In this document: piece by piece, positions 5,276 to 58,145 of the stretch
Layout of the letters: each line of letters begins with the position of its first letter
Position numbering within the stretch: the first letter of the stretch is position 1
Assembly (NCBI RefSeq): GCF_019891175.1
Contig: NZ_CP072600.1
Coordinates: 3,720,001 to 3,784,000 of the forward strand
Direction: 5' to 3'
DNA length: 64,000 nt
DNA from: Leptothermofonsia sichuanensis E412
Lineage (GTDB): Bacteria > Cyanobacteriota > Cyanobacteriia > Leptolyngbyales > Leptolyngbyaceae
Made by a program: the position numbers and the translations under genes
Notes under the pieces: generated by a model
Databases searched by the model: none
Seen by the model: the letters and a program-made list of their open reading frames with translations, nothing else
Told to the model about the DNA's origin: nothing

Positions 5276-5535
5276 CAACCCACAATCCATATTTCACCCT
5301 TCCAACTGGCGCAAAAGGATGAATATGAGTTCCGACAGATTTAGTATATAAGTATACTGAATTTTTTGGAAGTAATGAGAAAAATTACTGAAATCTCTAT
5401 GAGAAAGTTAGAAAGAGAGCGTTAGAAAGCTCAAAACCTTATCCTGTAGTCTTTTTCCCTCCGTTATCCAGTTTCTGCCCTCTGCTGGGGTTGCTAATGC
5501 AGGTTGGCGAAAATAACCCGCCAGGTTTAGGTTGA

Positions 5536-5592
5536 ACCACGAAGACACAAAGCGCACTAAGAAACGTTGTGTCCCTTCGTGCCTTTGTGGTG
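5536..5592. repeat. Dispersed CACAAAG/CTTTGTGG inverted repeat
   Basis: AACCACGAAGACACAAAG pairs with GTGCCTTTGTGGT. Members of this family are also at 18103-18165, 33494-33558, 44864-44929, 56573-56641 and 58207-58270, with half copies at 13468-13490, 44551-44590, 51722-51757 and 60482-60530. Confidence 0.75.
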
Positions 5593-5751
5593 AGAAACTT
5601 CTGCCGCAATGCACTAATTCTGGGTAATGAATAGACTTAATCGGCAATAAATTGTCCATGCTCTGAGTTGATGAAAAGACTGCCAGAATTGATGATTTTA
5701 CGTCAAGAATTTATAGCTTTCCTTGTTTCCGACTAAGTCTAATTAAAAATT

Positions 5752-23463: not shown

Positions 23464-24894
23464 CTAATTCGGTGGCGCCAGATAGGGGAAGGTGGGTGCC
23501 AGGGGCTGATGCCCCGTTGCTGGATTACCGGGGGTTTGCTCGTAGCTGACGTTATCAGTGACAATACGATTACCCGTCAACGCGCCCAATGCCACATCAA
23601 CCACATCATCCTTGAGTTTGCGCCCCCGCACCGGGGAACCAAACCGATTGAAGTCTTCTGCAAACCCGCTTGGTCCTGTAGTGTCAATTCGCATCACATC
23701 GGGTAGAAAGGCACCGAGAATTGCACTGATATCAGCATCGCTGTTGCCAAAAGCCCGTAGAGTTTGGGTGGCTTCGGCTGCGATCGCCTGTAACTGGCTG
23801 CTATTTTGCGTCGTGGGCTGAATGCGGTTATAGGCAGCAAGATTGCGTTGCGTGAATAACAGCGCCTCGTTAATGCCTGGACGGGCTAACTGCTCAGTCT
23901 GGAAAACCTGCCTGGTGCGTGGATCAGGAACCAGCAGCGACAGCCAGGTGTCAAAGGTAGTGGCCTGTGTTCTTCCCTGCAACAGGGAACGGGGTACCCT
24001 GACCACAATTGTGTTCACGTTATAACCTTTGGCAAAGTCGAGTGCCTGGTCAGCCGGACGAAAACCAACGGCTGGCCCAAACCCTAAAGCACCTGCCCGT
24101 ACCCGAAAAAATTGCTCGACATCGAAAAAGAAAGGATCTTCCCGCAAGCCTGCAAAAACAGTGACCTGCTGCCCATTGACTGAGAACTGGTTGAGCCTGG
24201 GGTTTTCTGCCGATGCCAGGGGGGTGGTTGTCAGGGGAGACCCATCTCTATTGCGCGAAATGGTTTGAGTTTGTCGATCCCGTTCCAAAATTACTAGCTG
24301 AAATTGCTGGGCCTGGGGATTCCCGGTTGGGCGGCTAAAAGTAAACCGCAGCGTGATATCAGGTTGGGTTTTAGGGGCTGCATCTTTGTTTGCCGCCCGC
24401 GAAATCCGAAATTCGTAGCGAGCATTATTACTGAAGAAGTATTGTTGCCGTGCCAGTGAACGAGGATTGGTGTTCATCACCAGGATCAAATCACCTTCCC
24501 GGGCGGTGGGATTTTGATCCACTTCACGAAACACATACAGGTCTGTTAAGCTCAGTGACCGACTTCTCACATCAATGTCGCCATCATCGTGGTCCGATGC
24601 ATGGACTCCAGAAGGACTGAAGGCAGACAGGATCCCGATCGCACCCCCGGCAATGCCAACCGTGAGGGCAGCCATTGCAGTCGCCCGTCGCCAACCCACC
24701 GGGTGCATGGCGACTACACTTTGAACACGATGAGCATTTACTTTCCAGCATTGAACCAATGGCTGCAAGAGGGGCCTTGGTTGAATGGCACTGACATAAA
24801 GCCTAAGGGATCTCCAACTTCTTCGAGAAATTGGAGATCTGGGTGATTGCATCTGGCTTAATTCAGCGTCATTCGGCTTTGGTTGATTCACCAT
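23464..24894 (-). CDS. DUF4331 protein with a MITE-derived N-terminus
   Basis: 476 residues. From about residue 65 a hydrophobic segment (AMAALTVGIAGGAIGILSAF) leads into SDHDDGDIDVRSRSLSLTDLYVF, the start typical of DUF4331, and the domain runs to near the end (RKLKDDVVDVALGALTG; PYLAPPN). DUF4331 proteins are exported and of unknown function. Codons 7-37 are made entirely of the 92-bp mobile element at 24783-24874, with flanking 10-bp duplications. The original start may be the in-frame ATG before HPVGWRRATAM, about 60 residues in, which would give a normal signal peptide. It is first gene of the DUF4331-TPR-NicO group. Confidence 0.85.
   Translation of the reverse strand: MVNQPKPNDAELSQMQSPRSPISRRSWRSLRLYVSAIQPRPLLQPLVQCWKVNAHRVQSVVAMHPVGWRRATAMAALTVGIAGGAIGILSAFSPSGVHASDHDDGDIDVRSRSLSLTDLYVFREVDQNPTAREGDLILVMNTNPRSLARQQYFFSNNARYEFRISRAANKDAAPKTQPDITLRFTFSRPTGNPQAQQFQLVILERDRQTQTISRNRDGSPLTTTPLASAENPRLNQFSVNGQQVTVFAGLREDPFFFDVEQFFRVRAGALGFGPAVGFRPADQALDFAKGYNVNTIVVRVPRSLLQGRTQATTFDTWLSLLVPDPRTRQVFQTEQLARPGINEALLFTQRNLAAYNRIQPTTQNSSQLQAIAAEATQTLRAFGNSDADISAILGAFLPDVMRIDTTGPSGFAEDFNRFGSPVRGRKLKDDVVDVALGALTGNRIVTDNVSYEQTPGNPATGHQPLAPTFPYLAPPN
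24783..24874. mobile_element. 92-bp MITE-like element, family B, copy 1 (inside a CDS)
   Basis: Ends GAATGGCACTGA and TTCAGCGTCATTC are inverted repeats, with an inner hairpin ATCTCCAACTTCTT/AAATTGGAGAT. The flanks GGCCTTGGTT (24773-24782) and GGCTTTGGTT (24875-24884) match 9 of 10 bases, as expected for a target duplication. Confidence 0.85.
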
Positions 24895-25028: not shown

Positions 25029-25127
25029 GCCCTCATCCCCCCACCCCTTCTCCCAAACTTGGGAGAAGGGGAGTGAGACAGGGTTGAAGTCCCTCTCCCA
25101 GTTTTGGGAGAGGGATTCAGGGTGAGG
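25029..25127. repeat. Double-hairpin dispersed repeat (CTCTCCCA/TGGGAGAG)
   Basis: Two adjacent stems: CCCTTCTCCCA...TGGGAGAAGGG and CCCTCTCCCA...TGGGAGAGGG. This repeat type is common in cyanobacterial genomes as I know them. Confidence 0.7.
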
Positions 25128-25477
25128 ACGCATTGGATGCTCGCACAGCAGGTTAATTGAGACGGCACCAGATTCAGCAACATCAGAACAGGTTGAATGG
25201 TTCCTTTGCAGGAGAGTACGCAGGCTTGCTGAAAATGGATGCCTCGAATGCAAAAAATTCCCAACTCTTCCAGTTTTTGGAGGATGGAGAAATACGCTAC
25301 TTCTACCTACAAAGAAGGGGGATCAATCATCCAAGGACAGCAGTGCTAGAATAGTCCCGATTGTTCAGGAGCAAAGTTGGGAGATTCGGCGTCTTTAGAT
25401 GTGTTGTTACTAAATCTGTCGTCACTGAATCTGTCGTTACCGAATGTGTAATCAGTGGGCGCGAGGAGTTTTAGATC

Positions 25478-29544: not shown

Positions 29545-32280
29545 ATGCAAAGTCAGCAACCATTCCCTCAAATTCCTGCCTGCACCTGGAACCGAACCAT
29601 TGGTTTGGGGTGGGAGAATCCCTATACTGTCCGTTATACCAGTAATTTAGATGATGGTCCCTTCCACGGGATGCCCCTGGGTGGTTTTGGTGCAGGTTGC
29701 ATTGGGCGATCGCACCGAGGTGACTTCAACCTCTGGCATATTGATGGTGGCGAGCATGTCTTCCAATCGATCCCTGCCTGTCAGTTCAGCGTGTTTGAGC
29801 AAATGGGGGAACAAACCCAGGTATATGCCCTCTGTACAGAACCGCCGGATGATGGAAGTTTGGGATGTTGGAAGTGGCACCCGGTTGCAGGCACCTATCA
29901 TGCCCTCTACCCGCGTAGCTGGTTTGTCTACGAAAATGTCTTCCAGGCATCTCTGACCTGTGAACAGTTTTCGCCGATCATTGCGCATAACTATCAGGAA
30001 ACCAGCTATCCAGTCGCAATTTTTGAATGGACGGCCCACAACCCCACCCGTCAGCCTGTTACCCTCAGCATCATGCTGACCTGGCAGAACATGGTCGGCT
30101 GGTTTACCAATGCACTCAAATCCTCAGAAGTCAAAATTCGTGATGATGGCAGCCCTGTTTACGAGTATCAACCCCGCCTGGGGGAGAGCGCTGGCAACTT
30201 CAATCGGCTCACAGGAGACGAGCAGCGGATTGGGATCGTGATGGGGAAAGATAAAGCCACAAGGATAAAAGACGAACCTGCCTCTATTCATTTTTCATTT
30301 CCTCCTTCATCCTACTCTGCGGAAGCGGCAGAGCCGTATTTCCTCCATCCTTCCGAAGGAGATGGTCAATGGGCGATCGCCACCGTTCTCAATCCCAACC
30401 TGTGGGAAGTTTTCTATCACACCCGCTGGAACCCAGCGGGGGATGGGGCTGATTTATGGCAAACCTTTGCCGCCGACGGCTCCCTGCTCGATGTGGAGGA
30501 TGAAACGCCAGCCGGCGAGGACGAGCAGATTGGAGGGGCGATCGCAGTTCGCTTTACCCTGCAACCGGGGCAGACTCGTAAAATTCCTTTTGTCCTGAGT
30601 TGGGATTTTCCAGTGACTGAATTTGCCCAGGGAGTGGAGTACTTCCGCCGCTACACTGATTTTTTTGGGCGCACCGGGCAGAATGCCTGGAGTATTGCCC
30701 GCACTGCCCTGAAGCATTACCCCACCTGGCGCGAAAAGATTCAAACCTGGCAGCAGCCAATTTTAGATCGGGCAGATCTGCCCGACTGGTTCAAGATGGC
30801 TCTGTTCAATGAACTCTACAACCTGACGGATGGAGGTACCCTCTGGAGTGCAGCAGATGAACGGGATCCGGTGGGTCAGTTTGCGGTGCTGGAGTGTATC
30901 GACTACCGCTGGTATGAGAGCCTGGATGTCAGATTGTATGGTTCCTTTGCTCTACTTCAACTATTTCCCAGATTAGAAAAAGCGGTGATGCGGGCGTTTG
31001 CACGGGCAATTCCTGCCAGCGACCATCGCACTCGCATCATTGGCTACTACTACACAATCGGGGCAGATAGTCCAGTGGCAGTCCGCAAGGTGGCCGGGGC
31101 AACGCCCCACGATCTGGGTGCGCCCAACGAGCACGTCTGGGAACAAACCAACTACACCAGCTACCAGGACTGCAATCTGTGGAAAGACCTGCCCTGCGAT
31201 TTCGTTCTGCAAGTCTATCGGGACTTTCTCCTCACAGGCGCAACCGATGTTGAGTTCCTGGCTGAGTGCTGGGATGCCATTGTCCACACCCTCACCTATC
31301 TCAAGACCTTTGACCAGGACGGTGATGGCATCCCGGAAAATTCCGGTGCTCCTGACCAGACCTTTGATGACTGGAAATTGCAGGGAGTCAGTGCCTACTG
31401 CGGTGGACTATGGTTAGCGGCATTGGAGGCTGCCATTGCGATCGGGCGGATCCTGGAAAGTGCTGATCTCTCAGATTTAAATTCTGAGTCAGATTTAAGT
31501 TCTGGGTCAGACAACTCAAGGCAAAATCCAAACCTCGAAACGCAAAACGCCCTTGCCCAATTCCAGTCTTGGTTAGACCAGGCCCGTCCCATCTATCAGG
31601 AGAAACTCTGGAACGGTCAGTACTATCGTCTGGACAGCAACAGCGGCTCCGATGTGGTCATGGCAGACCAGCTCTGCGGACAGTTCTACGCTCGCCTGCT
31701 CAATCTGCCCGATATTGTGCCACCTGACTGCGCTCAGACTGCCCTTAAAACGATTTACAATGCCTGCTTTGTTAACTTCAACCAGTACCTGGCATCCGGT
31801 GCCCTCAAAACCCAGCACTTCACTTCAGTGCAGGCTGCCAGAGCAGCGGAGGAGGCAGGGGACAGGAAACAGAAAATAGGGGACAGGGAACAGGGGACAG
31901 GGGAAGCAGAGAGCTATTCTTCACTTTTTGCTCCCGCTCCCCCAGTTCCGCTCCCCCAGCTCCGCTCCCCCATCCCTCTCGGTGCTGCCAACGGTGTTCG
32001 CCCGGACGGCTCGCCCGAAAACCCAAATGCAACCCATCCCCTGGAGGTATGGACCGGGATTAACTTTGGGTTAGCAGCATTCCTGATGCAAATGGGAATG
32101 CAGGCAGAAGCGTTGCAGGTGACAGAGGCAGTGGTACGTCAGATCTATACCTGCGGGCTTCAGTTTCGTACTCCAGAAGCCATTACCCCCAGTGGCACCT
32201 TTCGTGCCAGTCATTACCTGCGGGCAACAGCAATCTGGGCAATTCTGGTAAGAAACAATAATTTCTTAGAGGGGGTTTGA
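29545..32280 (+). CDS. GH116-family beta-glucosidase / glucosylceramidase-like enzyme
   Basis: 911 residues. The N-domain starts with MPLGGFGAGCIGRSHRGDFNLW, a hallmark of GH116 (GBA2-like) enzymes. The catalytic (alpha/alpha)6 domain holds the expected nucleophile Glu450 in VLECIDYRWYESLDVRLYGS and acid/base Asp608 in DQTFDDWKLQG. GANGVRPDG-like and HPLEVWTGINFGLAAFLM complete it. It cleaves beta-glucosides, possibly glucolipids. Two low-complexity insertions disturb the conserved pattern: residues ~640-663 (Ser/Asp/Asn) and ~763-815, coded by 31830-31990, which contains GGGGACAGGGAACAGG repeats. The frame is kept. It is divergent from the TPR-CHAT pair. Confidence 0.92.
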   Translation: MQSQQPFPQIPACTWNRTIGLGWENPYTVRYTSNLDDGPFHGMPLGGFGAGCIGRSHRGDFNLWHIDGGEHVFQSIPACQFSVFEQMGEQTQVYALCTEPPDDGSLGCWKWHPVAGTYHALYPRSWFVYENVFQASLTCEQFSPIIAHNYQETSYPVAIFEWTAHNPTRQPVTLSIMLTWQNMVGWFTNALKSSEVKIRDDGSPVYEYQPRLGESAGNFNRLTGDEQRIGIVMGKDKATRIKDEPASIHFSFPPSSYSAEAAEPYFLHPSEGDGQWAIATVLNPNLWEVFYHTRWNPAGDGADLWQTFAADGSLLDVEDETPAGEDEQIGGAIAVRFTLQPGQTRKIPFVLSWDFPVTEFAQGVEYFRRYTDFFGRTGQNAWSIARTALKHYPTWREKIQTWQQPILDRADLPDWFKMALFNELYNLTDGGTLWSAADERDPVGQFAVLECIDYRWYESLDVRLYGSFALLQLFPRLEKAVMRAFARAIPASDHRTRIIGYYYTIGADSPVAVRKVAGATPHDLGAPNEHVWEQTNYTSYQDCNLWKDLPCDFVLQVYRDFLLTGATDVEFLAECWDAIVHTLTYLKTFDQDGDGIPENSGAPDQTFDDWKLQGVSAYCGGLWLAALEAAIAIGRILESADLSDLNSESDLSSGSDNSRQNPNLETQNALAQFQSWLDQARPIYQEKLWNGQYYRLDSNSGSDVVMADQLCGQFYARLLNLPDIVPPDCAQTALKTIYNACFVNFNQYLASGALKTQHFTSVQAARAAEEAGDRKQKIGDREQGTGEAESYSSLFAPAPPVPLPQLRSPIPLGAANGVRPDGSPENPNATHPLEVWTGINFGLAAFLMQMGMQAEALQVTEAVVRQIYTCGLQFRTPEAITPSGTFRASHYLRATAIWAILVRNNNFLEGV

Positions 32281-32358
32281 GAAGTCGGTCAGATTGTAAA
32301 AAAGCTCCCTCAGTGTAAGTGGCAAGTAGTACAAACTACAGCCTTGAGAGAACATCAT

Positions 32359-32600
32359 GAGTAAAGTCTGATCTGGCGGTTGAAGTGGATATTCCAGCAG
32401 TTCCCTGGATTGATTATCGATTTATGCGGATCTGGAGGTGCCAGAACGCTGGCGCTAATGATGAGCGATCGCTCAACATTCACCAGTTGCAGGACAACCA
32501 ATATTTAACCTGCGACCACAGCATTGCCCTCCTTCCCCTGCAAGTCAACGACATTACCCGATTTCTCGAATTGCGATTTCCGCTAATTCCCGTCCCCTAA
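32359..32600 (+). pseudogene. Uma2-family (DUF820) C-terminal remnant
   Basis: Read with one base restored near 32385, the sequence gives DLAVEVDI, SSSLD, a stop, then LSIYADLEVPERWR and, in another frame, LNIHQLQDNQYLTCDHS and VNDITRFLE. These are the last ~80 residues of a Uma2-type nuclease-like protein. The N-terminal part is missing. It ends tail to tail with the intact Uma2 gene at 32583-33392. Confidence 0.7.
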
Positions 32601-33392: not shown

Positions 33393-33493
33393 GATCTTGC
33401 ATCTCCTAAGTCCGATTGCCTAAAGTGTAGCACTGGCTCATTCTCCTGGTGGCTCATTCTCCTGGTGGCTAAGGAATGGGAATTTTATGGACT

Positions 33494-33558
33494 GAAACTT
33501 CACCACAGAGGCACAGAGAACATAGAGGAATTACTCTGTGTCTCTGTGGTAGAAAGTT
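33494..33558. repeat. Dispersed CACAGAG/CTCTGTG inverted repeat
   Basis: CACCACAGAGGCACAGAG pairs with CTCTGTGTCTCTGTGGT; the outer GAAACTT/AAAGTT also pair partly. It lies between the Uma2 and TPR genes. Confidence 0.75.
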
Positions 33559-33586
33559 AAGGCTTTCGGTTTATTGACTCGATCCT

Positions 33587-34984
33587 TTAATAAAAGCTGT
33601 TAGACGAAGATGGAACATCCGTTGAGTCATTTTGCTGAAGTCCCTCACGTTCGTCGCGTTCACCCGCGATCGCATGTTGCTCCTGTTCTTGCCTGTAGCG
33701 CCCAATCGCCAGTTCACGGCGACTCAGTGCATCGGGGAAATCGGGTTTGATCTGAAGCGTTTTGTCGTAGCAACCAGCCGCTGCTTTGTAATTACCCAGA
33801 TGGCTGAAAGCAGCTCCGCGGCTATACCAGGCAGGGTAAAAATTGGGGTTGATTTCGAGCGCCCGATCATAACTGGCAATCGCGTCCTCGTTTTTGCCCA
33901 TGTGCCCCAGAGATAGCCCCCGGCGGTACCAGGCTTCGTAAAAGTCTGGCTGACACCGAACGGCCTGATCAAAACTGTTGATCGCTTCCGGGTATCGCCC
34001 CAGTTTACGGAGGGCAGTCCCATGACTGTACCAGGCTTTAGCAAAAGCGGGGTCGAGTTCAATCGCCTTTTCGTAGCAGGTGAGGGCTTCTTCATATCGC
34101 CCTAACTTATGCAAAGCACAGCCCCAGTTATACCAGGCTTCCCGCAGGTCTGGCTTTAGCTTCAGGGCGTTACGATAACTGGCGATCGCCTCTTCGTAAT
34201 GCCCCAGGGCATCCAGCGCATTCCCCCGGTTGTACCAGGCTTCGTAAAGTTGGGGATTGAGTTCCAGGGCTTTGTTGTAACTGGCTGTCGCTTCCTCATG
34301 GCGTCTCAGTTTATGCAGCATGTTACCCCGGTTGTACCAGGCTCCATACCAGTCTGGTTTGATGTTTAATACCCGGTCATAACTGACCAGGGCATCGTAG
34401 TAACGGTTGAGTTTGTTCAGGGTATTGGCGCGATTGTACCAGGCATTGGAGTAGTGGGGTCGGAACTGAATGGCCATGTCGTAGCTGGCGATCGCCTCTT
34501 CGTAACGTCCCAGTCTATACAAAATGATGCCCCGGTTGTACCAGGATTTGGCATACTCCGGGTAAAGTTCAATGGTTCTGTCGTAGCTGGCAAGGGCGTC
34601 TTCATAACAACCTGTTTTCTCCAGCGCGTTCCCCCGGTTGTACCAGACCTGATGGAAGTCGGGCTTGAGCCTGGTGGCTTTGTCATAACTGGCGATCGCA
34701 GCATCGTAGCTTCCCAGGTTAAACAACGCCATGCCATAACTGTTGAGCGCTTCAACATAGTCAGGTTTCAAGTCCAATGACTGGTTAAAGCTGGCAGCCG
34801 CCTCTTCGTAACGTCCCAGTTCATAGAGCGCCATTCCCCGCTGATACCAGGCAAGATAGTCATCGGGGCGAAGAGACAGCACCCGATCGAACGTAAAAAT
34901 AGCGTCTTCATAGGATCTGGCCTGACTAAGCTGCAAACCCTGCTGGTAAAGAAAATCGGCTTCTGAATTTGAAAGCTGAGGCAT
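33587..34984 (-). CDS. TPR protein with 12 regular repeats
   Basis: 465 residues. Twelve TPR units of exactly 34 residues run from about 5 to 425, nearly all with the pattern AWYNRG...LGRYEEAIASYDRALELKP. The C-terminal 40 residues are charged and Ser-rich. No signal peptide or membrane helix is seen, so it is likely cytoplasmic. Such regular arrays act as protein-binding solenoids; no partner gene is adjacent. Because the repeat units are also similar at DNA level, unit number may vary by recombination. Confidence 0.9.
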   Translation of the reverse strand: MPQLSNSEADFLYQQGLQLSQARSYEDAIFTFDRVLSLRPDDYLAWYQRGMALYELGRYEEAAASFNQSLDLKPDYVEALNSYGMALFNLGSYDAAIASYDKATRLKPDFHQVWYNRGNALEKTGCYEDALASYDRTIELYPEYAKSWYNRGIILYRLGRYEEAIASYDMAIQFRPHYSNAWYNRANTLNKLNRYYDALVSYDRVLNIKPDWYGAWYNRGNMLHKLRRHEEATASYNKALELNPQLYEAWYNRGNALDALGHYEEAIASYRNALKLKPDLREAWYNWGCALHKLGRYEEALTCYEKAIELDPAFAKAWYSHGTALRKLGRYPEAINSFDQAVRCQPDFYEAWYRRGLSLGHMGKNEDAIASYDRALEINPNFYPAWYSRGAAFSHLGNYKAAAGCYDKTLQIKPDFPDALSRRELAIGRYRQEQEQHAIAGERDEREGLQQNDSTDVPSSSNSFY

Positions 34985-35381
34985 ATTCAGGATCCACGGT
35001 TATTGCTTCATTCTACTCACAGATATATTTTTGTCTGTGAGGGGTATAACCATTAAAAGCCAGCAAATTGAGGGGTTTTGGTTCTTTTTAGAGGAGATGA
35101 AAAAACTTGGCTAAGGGATCAGGCGCGATCGCCCCATCCGCTGAAAACCTTAATCAGAGCTACCCTTTAGTTGAATGGCACTGACATAAGGGGTAAGAGA
35201 TCTCCAACTTCTTGAAGAAGTTGGAGATCTGGGCGATCGTGTTTGGCTTAATTTAGGGCCATTCCCCTTTAGTTTGATTCATCCGGCTTTTCAGGAATAC
35301 CGTAGTATCTGAAGATCAAGACAATACGCTATAAGAACTATAAAGAAGTATGTACTTGCCAGAAGGTGATTTGGCCTGTAA
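34985..35381. other. Divergent intergenic region with a MITE
   Basis: No gene. It separates the 12-TPR gene from the acyltransferase gene and holds a family B element at 35173-35264. The remaining AT-rich 110 bases before 35382 probably carry the operon promoter. Confidence 0.6.
35173..35264. mobile_element. 92-bp MITE-like element, family B, copy 2, with perfect target duplication
   Basis: It is bounded by the direct repeat CCCTTTAGTT on both sides (35163-35172 and 35265-35274), 10 of 10 identical. Ends GAATGGCACTGA and AGGGCCATTC are inverted. Bases 35198-35230 form a 16-bp perfect stem around one base. It has no coding capacity. Confidence 0.9.
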
Positions 35382-36806
35382 ATGATTAACAAAAGAGTAG
35401 CGCGGTCACAGCGTTTAGCCTGGTTAGAAGGTATCCGCATTCTGGGAGTCATTTTACTTTTGATTTACCACGCCCAGTTGCTCTTTACAGGATATGCCTA
35501 TACTCCCCAGCCAATTGGTCTTACCGAAAATTTAGAGCAGTTACTTGCCCCGGTCGAAAACCTTTCTGACCGGGGTTTGCTATTCCGCTTCTTCAGTATT
35601 CCAGCCTGGTTTGGGTTTCAATTTGTCGATGTGTTTGTTCTCATCAGTGGCTTCTGCCTGGTGCTCTCCCAAAAAGGTAAGCCACTGGATATTGCCGGGT
35701 TTCTCAAACGTCGGGTCCTGAGGCTGTTGTTTCCTTTCTGGACCATTGTCTGGTTATCGCTGCCTGTCCTCTGGGCTGTTGGGTTAGCTGCCAACCTGAC
35801 AATTCCCAATCCTTGGCAGATGTTTGCTGCTGCCACCTTTCCCCTCCTGACCGACTTCAGTGGTGAACTATTGCGAGCCAATAGCCACACCTGGGGGTTC
35901 ATGCCATTGATTTTGAGCTTTGGTTTGCTTTCTCCATTGCTACGGATTTTGCTATTGCGGTGGGGAACTGCCCACTTGCTGTTCATCACTACAGTACTCA
36001 CGGTTGGTTACCGGGCACTGGCGGTTTACCAGTTTGATGGCCACCCCACTTATGTCTTGTTTGATACCTCGGTGGGGTGGTACCCATTTCTGTTGTTTCC
36101 GGCAAAGCTCAGCACGTTTGTGCTGGGAATGGTGGTTGCCCACTACTATTGCAAGGGCAGAGGTCCGGTGTTCTGGCAACCAGAAAAAGCCCTCCTGGTA
36201 GGGGGCGCTGTCTACTTGATTGGGTTTGTCTGCCAGTTCTATCGCTGGGGTTGGGTCTTTGCGGATCTCCTGCTGCCTGTGGGTCTGAGTCTCTGTTGTA
36301 TGGTAGGTTTCCGTGCGATCGCCCAGGGGCAGGTGGCAATGGCATTCAATATCTTAGGTCCCTACAGCTACAGCTACTTTCTCCTTTCCAGTCTGGTGGC
36401 AGACTATACGATTAAACTGGTGATTCGGGATAGTCCTTCTCTGTATACCCACTGGTTGCCGGTGATGGTCCTGGGAACCTGGGCAATCGCAATTCTGGCT
36501 GACTATACGTTGCCCTCTCTGCGGGGGCTGGTAATCGGACTGTTGCAGGATATGGACTATGTGCTGAACCGGCAACCGGTTGTGCGCCACCGGAACTGGA
36601 CTCCCCAGGCGGGCGATCGGGTCTGCTATCAGGGCAAAGCAGGCTGGCAGGTGATCAAAGTGGAAAAACTGCTGGATGAGCAGGAATTTTTTCTGTGCCA
36701 GGTCAGTGATGGCCAGCGATCGCTTTGGGTTCATGAAGATAACCTGGAACTTGCCGGAAAAAGTCGCTCTTCGCCAGAAGTAAACAACGACTCTACGGTT
36801 TCTTAA
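35382..36806 (+). CDS. Acyltransferase-3 family membrane protein
   Basis: 474 residues. About ten membrane helices. The N-terminus RLAWLEGIRILGVILLLIYHAQLL contains the family's R...H element, and FQFVDVFVLISGFCLVLS is the next conserved block. It probably transfers an acetyl or other acyl group onto a sugar polymer. The last ~75 residues (from NWTPQAGDRVCYQGKAGWQV) form a separate small beta-rich domain not usual in the family. It is the first of three codirectional genes, followed after 74 bp by a glycosyltransferase. Confidence 0.88.
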   Translation: MINKRVARSQRLAWLEGIRILGVILLLIYHAQLLFTGYAYTPQPIGLTENLEQLLAPVENLSDRGLLFRFFSIPAWFGFQFVDVFVLISGFCLVLSQKGKPLDIAGFLKRRVLRLLFPFWTIVWLSLPVLWAVGLAANLTIPNPWQMFAAATFPLLTDFSGELLRANSHTWGFMPLILSFGLLSPLLRILLLRWGTAHLLFITTVLTVGYRALAVYQFDGHPTYVLFDTSVGWYPFLLFPAKLSTFVLGMVVAHYYCKGRGPVFWQPEKALLVGGAVYLIGFVCQFYRWGWVFADLLLPVGLSLCCMVGFRAIAQGQVAMAFNILGPYSYSYFLLSSLVADYTIKLVIRDSPSLYTHWLPVMVLGTWAIAILADYTLPSLRGLVIGLLQDMDYVLNRQPVVRHRNWTPQAGDRVCYQGKAGWQVIKVEKLLDEQEFFLCQVSDGQRSLWVHEDNLELAGKSRSSPEVNNDSTVS

Positions 36807-46998: not shown

Positions 46999-47292
46999 AA
47001 ACTTTTTGGACTGGAGACTTCGAGGCGCGTTCCTTCGGGATTACTCCCTACTTCCGTCTTTTCTGCGTTACTCCGCAAAAAGATGAACGATCAACTTTAT
47101 TTCTGTATTTTATTTTACAAAATCCAGGAAAAACTGTTGATCTTTAAAAATTTACAATTTACGTGGATAGGGGAGGGGGGAGAGGAAAGAGGGGAGAGGA
47201 GAGAGGAGAGAGGAGAGAGAGTTGACAAACCACTAGCCTGCATCATTCATTAGAAGGATAGCCCTGGTGTCCAGGCAGAGCCTGGACACTGC

Positions 47293-56641: not shown

Positions 56642-56969
56642 TTTGGGGGCTGAACAGTTACTGTGTAACAGATAATGAACTTCTTTCTTAAGAAGCGTTG
56701 CCTTCTACCCGTAGACAGTGAAGCTTTCTCAGTTTAGCGAATATCATTAGATTCATAAGATAAGCGCACTGGATGGAAGTTATGCCGCTGTGATCCATTA
56801 CCTTCTCTTAAAGGAGAGCGACGGTAGAGAGAAGGGCAGTGCATATAGAGCAACAGCTGGTTGTGGAGTTTTTGTCGCTTCCTCCACTTTGTCCCTACCA
56901 AAGAAAGGTTAAATCCTTTATCAGAGCGGTCTGAGGCAGGGAACGCCTATGCTTTACCTATAGAGAGCC

Positions 56970-57046: not shown

Positions 57047-57457
57047 ATGATTGCTTCCAGTATGGCAGGTGTCCAGATGAACCCAGAGCAAATAAGGGCC
57101 ACTATCCAGAGAGCAGGTGAAACCTGGATGAATGGGGATGCCGACGAGTTTGCCAGACTGTTTCTGCCCGATGGCGAGTTGATTGTCCCTGGTTATCGCT
57201 GGCAGGGGCAGCAAGCCATCCACGATGTTGTGGCTGAGTTCAGTGCGACTCATACGGATGTCAACGTTAATATCCGTCGGATTCTGGTTGAGGGCGATAG
57301 TGCCGTCGTGGAGTGGGTTTGGGAAGACACAGAAACTCAGACCGGAAAGCGAACCCAGGCGGAAGATGCGATCGCCGTCGATTTTGAGCAGGGACAGATA
57401 CGGCGCTGGCGGGAGTACATTGATACCGAATCTCCCAGGGCCACCGTTCATCAATAA
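57047..57457 (+). CDS. NTF2-like (SnoaL/SgcJ type) protein
   Basis: 136 residues; in-frame ATGs at 57062 and 57077 are alternatives, and MNPEQIRATIQRA at 57077 looks most like a family start. The pattern AGETWMNGDADEFARLFLPDGELIVPG and the later VEWVWEDTETQTGKRT, EDAIAVDFEQGQIRRWREYID fit the NTF2-like cone fold with a hydrophobic pocket. Members are isomerases, hydrolases or binding proteins; none can be chosen. Its 3' end overlaps the thioredoxin-fold gene by 7 bp in the convergent direction. Confidence 0.85.
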   Translation: MIASSMAGVQMNPEQIRATIQRAGETWMNGDADEFARLFLPDGELIVPGYRWQGQQAIHDVVAEFSATHTDVNVNIRRILVEGDSAVVEWVWEDTETQTGKRTQAEDAIAVDFEQGQIRRWREYIDTESPRATVHQ

Positions 57458-58026
57458 CCTGGCTCATTGCCCGGTTTCCATTTGATATTGCAGCCAATGC
57501 TGGGCTTCTGGTCAGGTGAAATGGGCTGTCCTGTCAGGGTTGCCTCGATGGCCTGGCGCAAGTCCCTGCCCGTCACCGGCAACCCGTTACCGGGGCGGCT
57601 GTCGTCCAGTTGCCCCCGGTAGACCAGTTTACGCTCGCCATCGAACAGGAAAAAGTCAGGTGTGCAGGCCGCCGTGTAAGCTTTTGCCACCTCCTGGGTT
57701 TCGTCATAGCAGAACGGAAAGGTAAATCCGAGGGCGATCGCCATTTCCTTCAACTGTTCAGGGGCATCCGCAGGATAACTGGCCACATCGTTCGCACTGA
57801 TGGCGACAATGCCTAATTCACTGCCCTGATAGTCTTTGCCAAGCGTTGCCAATTGCTCTTTAACATGCTTGACATAGGGACAGTGCTGACAAATAAACAT
57901 GACCAGCAGTGCTTTTTTACCCGCCATGCTTGCCAGAGAAATCGTTTCACCAGAGACTACATCTGGTAATGAAAAGTCCGGTGCTACAGTGCCCAGCGCC
58001 AGCATGGTTGAAGGAGTCAGTGCCAT
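57451..58026 (-). CDS. Thioredoxin-fold (AhpC/TSA-like) protein
   Basis: 191 residues from MALTPSTMLALG (ATG at 58026). The longer start at 58068 would use codons from the MITE at 58053-58145 and is unlikely. FSLPDVVSGETISLA leads into the redox motif MFICQHCPYVKH (CxxC), and VAISANDV, FFLFDGERKLVYRGQLDD continue the peroxiredoxin-like fold. CxxC suggests a thiol-disulfide reductase rather than a 2-Cys peroxiredoxin. Cytoplasmic. Confidence 0.9.
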   Translation of the reverse strand: MALTPSTMLALGTVAPDFSLPDVVSGETISLASMAGKKALLVMFICQHCPYVKHVKEQLATLGKDYQGSELGIVAISANDVASYPADAPEQLKEMAIALGFTFPFCYDETQEVAKAYTAACTPDFFLFDGERKLVYRGQLDDSRPGNGLPVTGRDLRQAIEATLTGQPISPDQKPSIGCNIKWKPGNEPGY

Positions 58027-58052
58027 AAGAATGCAACGTATGAGGTATAAGG

Positions 58053-58145
58053 GAATGGCCCTGAACATAAGGGTTAAGAGATCTCCAAATTCTTGGAGAA
58101 GTTGCAGATCTGGGCGATCGCATTTAGCTTAATTCAGTGCCATTC
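58053..58145. mobile_element. 93-bp MITE-like element, family B, copy 3
   Basis: Ends GAATGGCCCTGAA and TTCAGTGCCATTC are inverted; the inner stem is AGATCTCCAAATTCTT/AGAAGTTGCAGATCT with a few mismatches. The target duplication is no longer clear. It lies just upstream of the thioredoxin-fold gene and may affect its promoter. Confidence 0.85.

Follow-up and report, generated by a model that had tools for sequence, protein, structure and literature searches.

The 92-bp repeat of Leptothermofonsia sichuanensis E412 is very probably a MITE moved by an IS4-family transposase

Background

A 92-bp sequence with inverted ends and an inner hairpin occurs three times in a 64,000-nucleotide stretch of the chromosome of the cyanobacterium Leptothermofonsia sichuanensis E412 (NZ_CP072600.1, positions 3,720,001 to 3,784,000 of the forward strand). 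This whole stretch is termed the window below, and its positions are counted from its first letter. The locus raises the questions of how so short a unit came to be repeated, which enzyme could have moved it, and whether its near-constant length carries any meaning. An earlier note on this DNA had proposed a mobile element family with 10-bp target duplications, served in trans by an IS4-like transposase. The evidence assembled here leads us to consider it very probable that the 92-bp unit is a MITE, namely a transposase-less derivative of an insertion sequence (IS), produced by internal deletion and moved by the IS4-family transposase of a relative of about 1.48-1.49 kb. This names a likely type of transposase for a repeat that is very common in the host genome, and ties the repeat to elements across the cyanobacteria and in some verrucomicrobial MAGs.

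Results and discussion

The copies in the window

The three copies described by the earlier note were recovered at the same positions, with lengths of 92, 92 and 93 bp. Their parts, and the target duplication of the second copy, are:

24783-24874, + strand: copy 1 of the 92-bp MITE, with ends at 24783-24794 and 24863-24874 and the inner palindrome at 24808-24840
35173-35264, + strand: copy 2 (92 bp), with ends at 35173-35184 and 35253-35264 and the inner palindrome at 35198-35230
35163-35172, + strand: left target duplication of copy 2, CCCTTTAGTT, perfect over 10 bp
35265-35274, + strand: right target duplication of copy 2, perfect over 10 bp
58053-58145, + strand: copy 3 (93 bp), with ends at 58053-58064 and 58134-58145 and the palindrome at 58079-58111

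Copy 2 is intergenic, with divergent ORFs on either side (33587-34984, - strand; 35382-36806, + strand). Copy 1 overlaps the 5' part of the ORF at 23464-24894 (- strand), and copy 3 covers the first 16 bp of the ORF at 57451-58068 (- strand). The perfect 10-bp direct repeat claimed for copy 2 and the 9/10 match claimed for copy 1 (24773-24782 against 24875-24884) are both borne out; the flanks of copy 3 agree at only 6 of 10 bases. A search of the window for the inner palindrome, allowing up to 3 mismatches, gave 4 matches that correspond to the 3 loci, one being found on both strands, as against none in 100 shuffles, and the 12-base end was matched 20 times when up to 2 mismatches were tolerated, against a shuffle mean of 7.6. 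The inner hairpin that had been claimed is likewise real at the level of folding, with the palindrome present at all three loci and every copy folding better than all 200 of its own shuffles (z of -4.4, -6.0 and -4.2). The shared inverted ends are also present, with the correction that they are not perfect in every copy, up to four mismatches per end being tolerated in the locus survey below.

The window also contains other repeats. One of the CCCTTCTCCCAAACTTGGGAGAAGGGG type, at 25029-25132, is dispersed, has inverted arms at 25046-25069 and 25091-25114, and finds many matches in the same-genus genome G001. Another stretch of about 100 bp, at 32265-32366, has at least three similar copies in G001, of which two sit right at a contig start, and is possibly a further short mobile repeat.

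A large family in the host chromosome

The host chromosome comprises 6,426,061 bp in one contig. The whole-genome search with the 92-bp unit that had been recommended as a check returned at least 40 matches (the best 40 of 163 candidates, all with E of at most 2.9e-23), and the inner palindrome, at up to 3 mismatches, was found 114 times on the forward and 113 times on the reverse strand, a control pattern giving 0. Hence the family is large, with about 114 palindrome loci in 6.4 Mb and roughly a hundred copies.

We surveyed 91 host loci, chosen by BLAST, palindrome or ends, and counted a copy as two-ended if each end had at most 4 mismatches. Both ends are present in 73 of the 91 and one or both are missing in the other 18, including a locus chosen via an end in which the palindrome is absent (L287). 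Of the 73 two-ended copies, 46 are exactly 92 bp long, and in the host consensus the first 12 terminal pairs are all complementary. The unit thus shows the features by which a MITE is recognised in the first instance: it is short (92 bp), has no transposase gene and is bounded by terminal inverted repeats. None of 30 insertion sites falls inside a long open frame, whereas 362 of 600 control positions taken from these loci do; in this test the flanks were joined minus one 10-bp duplication, so that 11-bp sites would join out of frame and could be missed, and copy 1, with its ORF overlap, lies outside the 30 sites.

Target duplications and related empty sites

Among the first 31 host copies, read in the 10-bp register, 20 have flanks that agree at 8 or more of 10 bases, 9 of these perfectly, as against 7 of 930 mispaired flanks at the same threshold; 3 further copies of this set have a perfect duplication at 11 bp. 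Over the same 31 copies the flanks match at 72% in the 10-bp register, at 40% at 11 bp, and at 20-32% at the other lengths tried. The larger host set shows a 10-11-bp target duplication in 44 of the 73 two-ended copies (47 if a 9/11 match is accepted) and no clear duplication in 29. The duplicated target sites lean to CTATAGTY.

Empty sites were sought by comparing the joined flanks of the 73 sites with 921,344 bases. With self-matches excluded, a match across the joint was found for 5 sites, of which 3 were taken as empty sites (L278, L002 and L024); L020, which has no duplication, and L018, with a short left side, were set aside, and five queries that gave only self-matches across the joint (L014, L016, L240, L256 and L271) were not counted as empty. 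The joined flanks of L278 align ungapped over 75, 64 and 69 bp in L010, L015 and L271, respectively. The counterparts of the other two lie in the window:

33474-33571, - strand: related empty site for L002 (C1:3242.9 kb), with 79 of 99 positions identical across the joined flanks and a 3-bp gap inside the duplicated bases
5532-5613, + strand: related empty site for L024, from which the uncollapsed flanks differ by an 11-bp gap, with 9 of the 11 duplication bases matching

The 11-bp excess of L024, as expected of an uncollapsed 11-bp duplication, is also seen against L010 and L011. In these cases the MITE had inserted in other dispersed repeats. The two window stretches are themselves dispersed palindromic repeats, of the types ACCACAGAG..CTCTGTGGT and ACCACAAAGACACAAAG..CTTTGTGGT, and relatives of them elsewhere in the genome contain a MITE copy.

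The transposition claimed for the family is therefore upheld by the duplications, at 44 of 73 copies and at 20 of 31 against the 7 of 930 of the control, together with the related empty sites at paralogous repeats. The search for empty sites that the earlier note had advised succeeded within the host genome and yielded no clean orthologous site in the nearest relative, G001, where the region of copy 2 has no element and the intergenic DNA is too diverged to call a clean empty site. The contrary outcome it had envisaged, with orthologous sites all filled and none empty anywhere, is countered by the empty sites at host paralogous repeats. Target-site duplications and an insertion history, as expected of a MITE, can accordingly be added to its short length and inverted ends.

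A full-length IS4-type partner

A scan of host transposase loci for the MITE ends located the end CAATGGCACTGAAATAAGGGGATAG at C1:2521865 (- strand), next to an ORF that looks like the N-terminal part of a transposase. This fragment matches the NCBIfam IS4 model with an E of 5.6e-5 and 22.4 bits, under the whole-protein cut-off, and is the single match in the host chromosome. Its left end shares 10 of 12 sub-terminal bases with the left end of the MITE and 6 with the right end. A second copy of the end, with 3 mismatches and no such ORF, lies at C1:1004131, and among the host transposase loci lone ends occur next to the fragment (L038/L054) and in L041. The complete chromosome gave no intact IS of this kind, only the one N-terminal fragment, whose missing part is absent from the 30 of 41 host DDE_Tnp_1 loci examined. 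These same 30 of 41 loci lack a matching end pair, and the host DDE_Tnp_1 transposases were rejected as the autonomous partner on this count. We infer that the family was mobilised in trans by an IS4-type transposase that has since disappeared from the host or become defective there.

Relatives of the host fragment are found in 28 of the 388 genomes of the class, the host included. Thirty such loci, which include many fragments and short contigs, were searched for inverted 14-mers with an outer direct repeat, without supplying any end sequence. At least 10 of the 30 have GAATGGCACTGA-type ends flanked by 10-bp repeats, 8 perfect and 2 with one mismatch (L131 and L141), a count that is a lower bound because the fixed search offset misfit five short contig pieces. 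One other hit of the search, L132, was spurious. Nine of the ten ISs measure 1478-1491 bp and one 1613 bp; L129 and L147 are copies of one IS, leaving 9 distinct ones. All ten sit in families of the same class other than the host's, and in the host's own family no IS with verified ends was found. Two of their transposases score 197.7 and 224.2 bits against the NCBIfam IS4 model NF033592, for which the cut-off is 115. The left end of the IS is nearer to the left end of the MITE in 10 of 10 cases, and the right end to the right end in 8 of 10, two of the ten being one IS; this matching handedness is as expected of an internal deletion.

The MITE ends are therefore shared with autonomous elements of other genomes, and on the left side with the host fragment. 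This substantiates the IS4-like source that had been proposed, in that ISs of the same class combine such ends, 10-bp duplications and an IS4-family transposase; the earlier note's reservation that no related IS might have these ends has lost its ground. The comparison with ISs of the same strain, which it had also suggested, went half way, with a matching left end on the host fragment and no intact IS. In the mechanism that we propose, an IS element would have been deleted internally, keeping both transposase-binding ends and gaining the middle palindrome. The IS4-family DDE transposase of the full-length relative (about 1.48-1.49 kb) would recognise both ends and join them in one complex, and the unit would then move into intergenic DNA, where a staggered cut of 10 bp, sometimes 11 bp, would give rise to the target duplication.

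The inner palindrome

Divergence within the family, estimated on copies of exactly 92 bp (46 of 73), is very uneven. In 35 host copies chosen by BLAST it amounts to 2.2% in the stem, 8.2% in the ends and 42% in the loop; 6 copies chosen by their ends give 5.0%, 8.3% and 44%, and all 46, which were partly chosen by the palindrome, 2.5%, 9.0% and 43.5%. This invites the reading that the inner palindrome is itself the dispersed mobile or REP-like repeat, spreading mainly as palindromes with the IS ends as passengers, and the low divergence of the stem (2.2% in the BLAST-chosen set) counts in its favour. It can also call upon the 18 of 91 host loci that lack one or both ends, and upon similar palindromes at loci of G029, G021, G017, G010 and G003, around which no IS ends are visible by eye within 70 bp on either side. 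We nonetheless regard it as very improbable, given that the target duplications lie outside the GAATGGCACTGA ends and not at the palindrome, and that duplications also occur at elements with the same ends and lengths and other middles. The duplicating unit is thus bounded by IS-type ends, unlike a REP-like repeat, in which the palindrome itself, free of transposase-type ends, would be the unit. The bare palindromes of other cyanobacteria look like a separate module, and we read the palindrome of the MITE as a dispersed module that was captured by it and whose arms have been held perfect either by selection or by copying from one to the other.

Selection on the hairpin leads to another explanation, under which transposition only seeded the copies and these were then kept as regulatory or RNA-stabilising elements of neighbour genes. 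All three window copies adjoin ORF starts, and within the family the stem shows strong conservation. Comparison of the host, G006 and G252 families shows 4 and 2 two-sided changes in the 15-bp stem and 0 one-sided ones, every base pair being preserved. Against this, the 690 stem cells of the host copies hold 0 compensatory double changes and 35 one-sided ones, and in the same-genus genome G001 the 23 candidates scored, out of 51, include no match to the unit. Perfect palindromes would also be maintained if one arm were copied onto the other during replication. The absence of any Rfam entry at these positions at gathering scores points the same way, and we hold retention for a regulatory role to be unlikely. 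A known structural RNA at the MITE sites was discarded on that Rfam result. Elsewhere in the window Rfam recognises a CyVA-1 RNA at 56766-56842 (+ strand) and a glutamine riboswitch at 47024-47091 (- strand).

Relatives in other genomes

Exact ends separated by 76-104 bp were sought in a collection of 84,980 species, each represented by a single genome, and 34 stretches were recovered, in cyanobacteria and in four MAGs labelled Verrucomicrobia. The cyanobacterial carriers include Leptolyngbya PCC 7375, Coleofasciculus LEGE 07092, Oculatella LEGE 06141, Nodosilinea LEGE 07298, Shackletoniella and Kaiparowitsia, and G010, of the host's family, has an element in common with Leptolyngbyaceae RU_5_1. 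Within the class (388 genomes), exact-ended elements of 65-125 bp occur in 16 genomes and those of 121-181 bp in 4; 13 of 38 chosen genomes have elements of 45-105 bp, none shorter than 82 bp among the matches listed. Viral contigs gave 0 matches to exact ends 69-129 bp apart, a result that speaks against a viral source.

The middles of these same-ended elements differ, and their lengths are mostly 82, 92, 102 and 123 bp. G006 has 20 copies, 17 of 92 bp, built on the same plan around another palindrome, and a third palindrome lies in the G252 copies, which measure 90, 90 and 88 bp. The same-genus G001 has no exact-ended element of 65-125 bp; it carries three elements of 158 bp with the same ends (L201, L204 and L207), which are longer than the 92-bp unit and different from it. 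In G162, which shares elements with Oculatella, five elements of 123-124 bp (L200, L202, L203, L205 and L206) have these ends around a long TTCGACTACGCTCAGCCCTC inverted repeat. Elements of 82 bp with the same ends (L155, L160, L177 and L178) come from MAGs labelled Prosthecobacter, Akkermansia (two) and Verrucomicrobiaceae, L155 and L178 having perfect 11-bp repeats; possible explanations are transfer between phyla or mis-binned contigs.

Aligned without gaps, the 92-bp core of the host family differs from that of G026 at a fraction of 0.51 and from those of MAG.87 at 0.49-0.50, below the 1st percentile of shuffled cores (0.60); against L198 and L164 the values are 0.62-0.63, indistinguishable from chance. 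In this table 8 of the 11 named representatives are present in the de-duplicated list. As the ungapped alignments fall below the shuffled 1st percentile, the host family looks like an old relative of the elements of other genomes, with its middle exchanged.

Element length and the spacing of the ends

Two overlapping alternates (L187, 108 bp; L152, 163 bp) were removed from 84 rows before clustering, and the 82 non-redundant elements that remain have the following lengths (number of elements in brackets where above one): 82 (5), 90, 91 (3), 92 (46), 93 (5), 97, 99, 102 (8), 106, 118, 122, 123 (4), 124 and 158 (4) bp. The 46 elements of 92 bp fall into two clusters, 27 in that of the host, G006 and G252 families and 19 in one other. 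From our reading of the sequences, the length of 102 bp arose at least three times by a net gain of 10 bp in three lineages: by a 10-bp tandem duplication (repeat 8/10) in the host copy at C1:1458761, by a left-side insertion (10/10) in L188, and by a right-side insertion common to L152, L167, L171, L186, L195 and L196. The family seems to keep its length even when the middle is exchanged.

Helical phasing of the ends may explain the preferred lengths. Laboratory work on IS50 by Goryshin in 1994 reportedly established a spacing rule for bringing transposon ends together on short DNA, and the ends of so short a unit as the MITE would likewise have to sit on a workable helix face. More specifically, we tentatively suggest, while thinking it somewhat less than an even bet, that an IS4-type transposase synapses the ends only on the right face, that mobile lengths would hence lie near 82, 92, 102 and 123 bp, and that the middle would be a cassette exchangeable only if the total length stays in phase. 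The competing view, to which we give an even chance, is that common descent alone accounts for the constant length and the helix imposes no constraint. With 17 finely split clusters the phase test gives p of about 5e-4 with period scanning, the best period being 10.2 bp. When homologous middles are merged, 9 clusters remain within the range searched (modal lengths 82, 82, 92, 92, 97, 99, 106, 122 and 123 bp), for which p is 0.21-0.60 at fixed periods and 0.48 with scanning; with the two 158-bp families included (11 clusters) the values are 0.20-0.63 and 0.57. The set restricted to multi-copy or duplicated elements, picked after seeing the data, gives 0.056 with scanning. The loss of a significant phase on merging, which counts in favour of common descent, is the reason why the helical rule is put forward here as a hypothesis.

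Several lengths also depart from the rule: 90 bp in the G252 family, 158 bp in two families, 106 bp in L155 with a perfect 11-bp repeat, single elements of 97, 99 and 118 bp, and host copies of 84, 95 and 105 bp, one each, that carry duplications. The 90-bp family and the three duplicated host copies fit common descent. Two observations sit less easily with descent only. The first is the gain of exactly 10 bp in three lineages; the second is that the 92-bp cores remain ungapped at about 50% divergence. Host copies show about 0.05 indels per substitution, and a core difference of 0.5 corresponds by arithmetic to about 0.8 substitutions per site, so that 2-3 indels would be expected per pair, and yet the cores stay in register; the representatives compared had been preselected at 92 bp. 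Among the literature matches listed, judged by title and abstract opening, none dealt with a phasing of lengths in bacterial MITEs, and none of those listed for the end sequence itself was, by title, a transposon study. Should the length rule hold, these elements would be a natural record of the spacing rule by which two transposon ends are joined on short DNA.

Comparison with known systems

Among the closest known systems is the subgroup IS4 of the IS4 family, for which the account consulted (PMC2266710, De Palmenaer et al. 2008) gives 1) a length of 1400-1650 bp with direct repeats of 10-13 bp, 2) an end consensus of -AATR--------WTW----, whose bases are called 'mostly conserved', and 3) the hallmarks Y(2)R(3)E(6)K and D(60-110)D(100-150)E. 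The ISs found here fit in size and repeat length. The end consensus fits the left ends of 8 of the 10 (L125 and L142 being without T15) and the right ends of 5 (L131, L136 and L141 depart at position 14, L125 and L142 at 15), as well as both ends of the 92-bp MITE consensus. The aspartate spacing is within the published range in 12 of 14 transposases, those in which both motifs were matched, the aspartates being picked by motif and not by alignment to known IS4. In contrast, the Y, R, E and K residues, present in each of the 14 long transposases, are spaced as Y(2)R(4)E(6)K, with one more residue between R and E, and the assignment of the partner ISs to this exact subgroup is accordingly provisional. 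The 92-bp unit itself differs from subgroup IS4 elements in having no gene.

Cyanobacterial MITEs such as Nezha are short and non-coding, with inverted ends and many copies, as is the 92-bp unit, the likeness being one of description. Published accounts of cyanobacterial MITEs, as far as consulted, cover Nezha and those of Anabaena and Microcystis (PMC10969869, PMC3733652). With the small dispersed or REP-like repeats of cyanobacteria (PMC3733652, where Elhai et al. 2008 is cited) the unit shares its inner part, since palindromes like the inner one stand alone in other cyanobacteria; it differs from them in its transposase-type ends and the target duplication outside these. A further parallel is provided by the internal eliminated sequences of Paramecium and Blepharisma, whose short lengths peak about every 10 bp, a periodicity explained there, in the portions of the reports consulted (PMC3464196, PMC9942856), by helical phasing of a transpososome-like complex. 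Those systems are eukaryotic, depend on a domesticated piggyBac excisase and comprise tens of thousands of elements, whereas the elements considered here form few families, with weak statistics.
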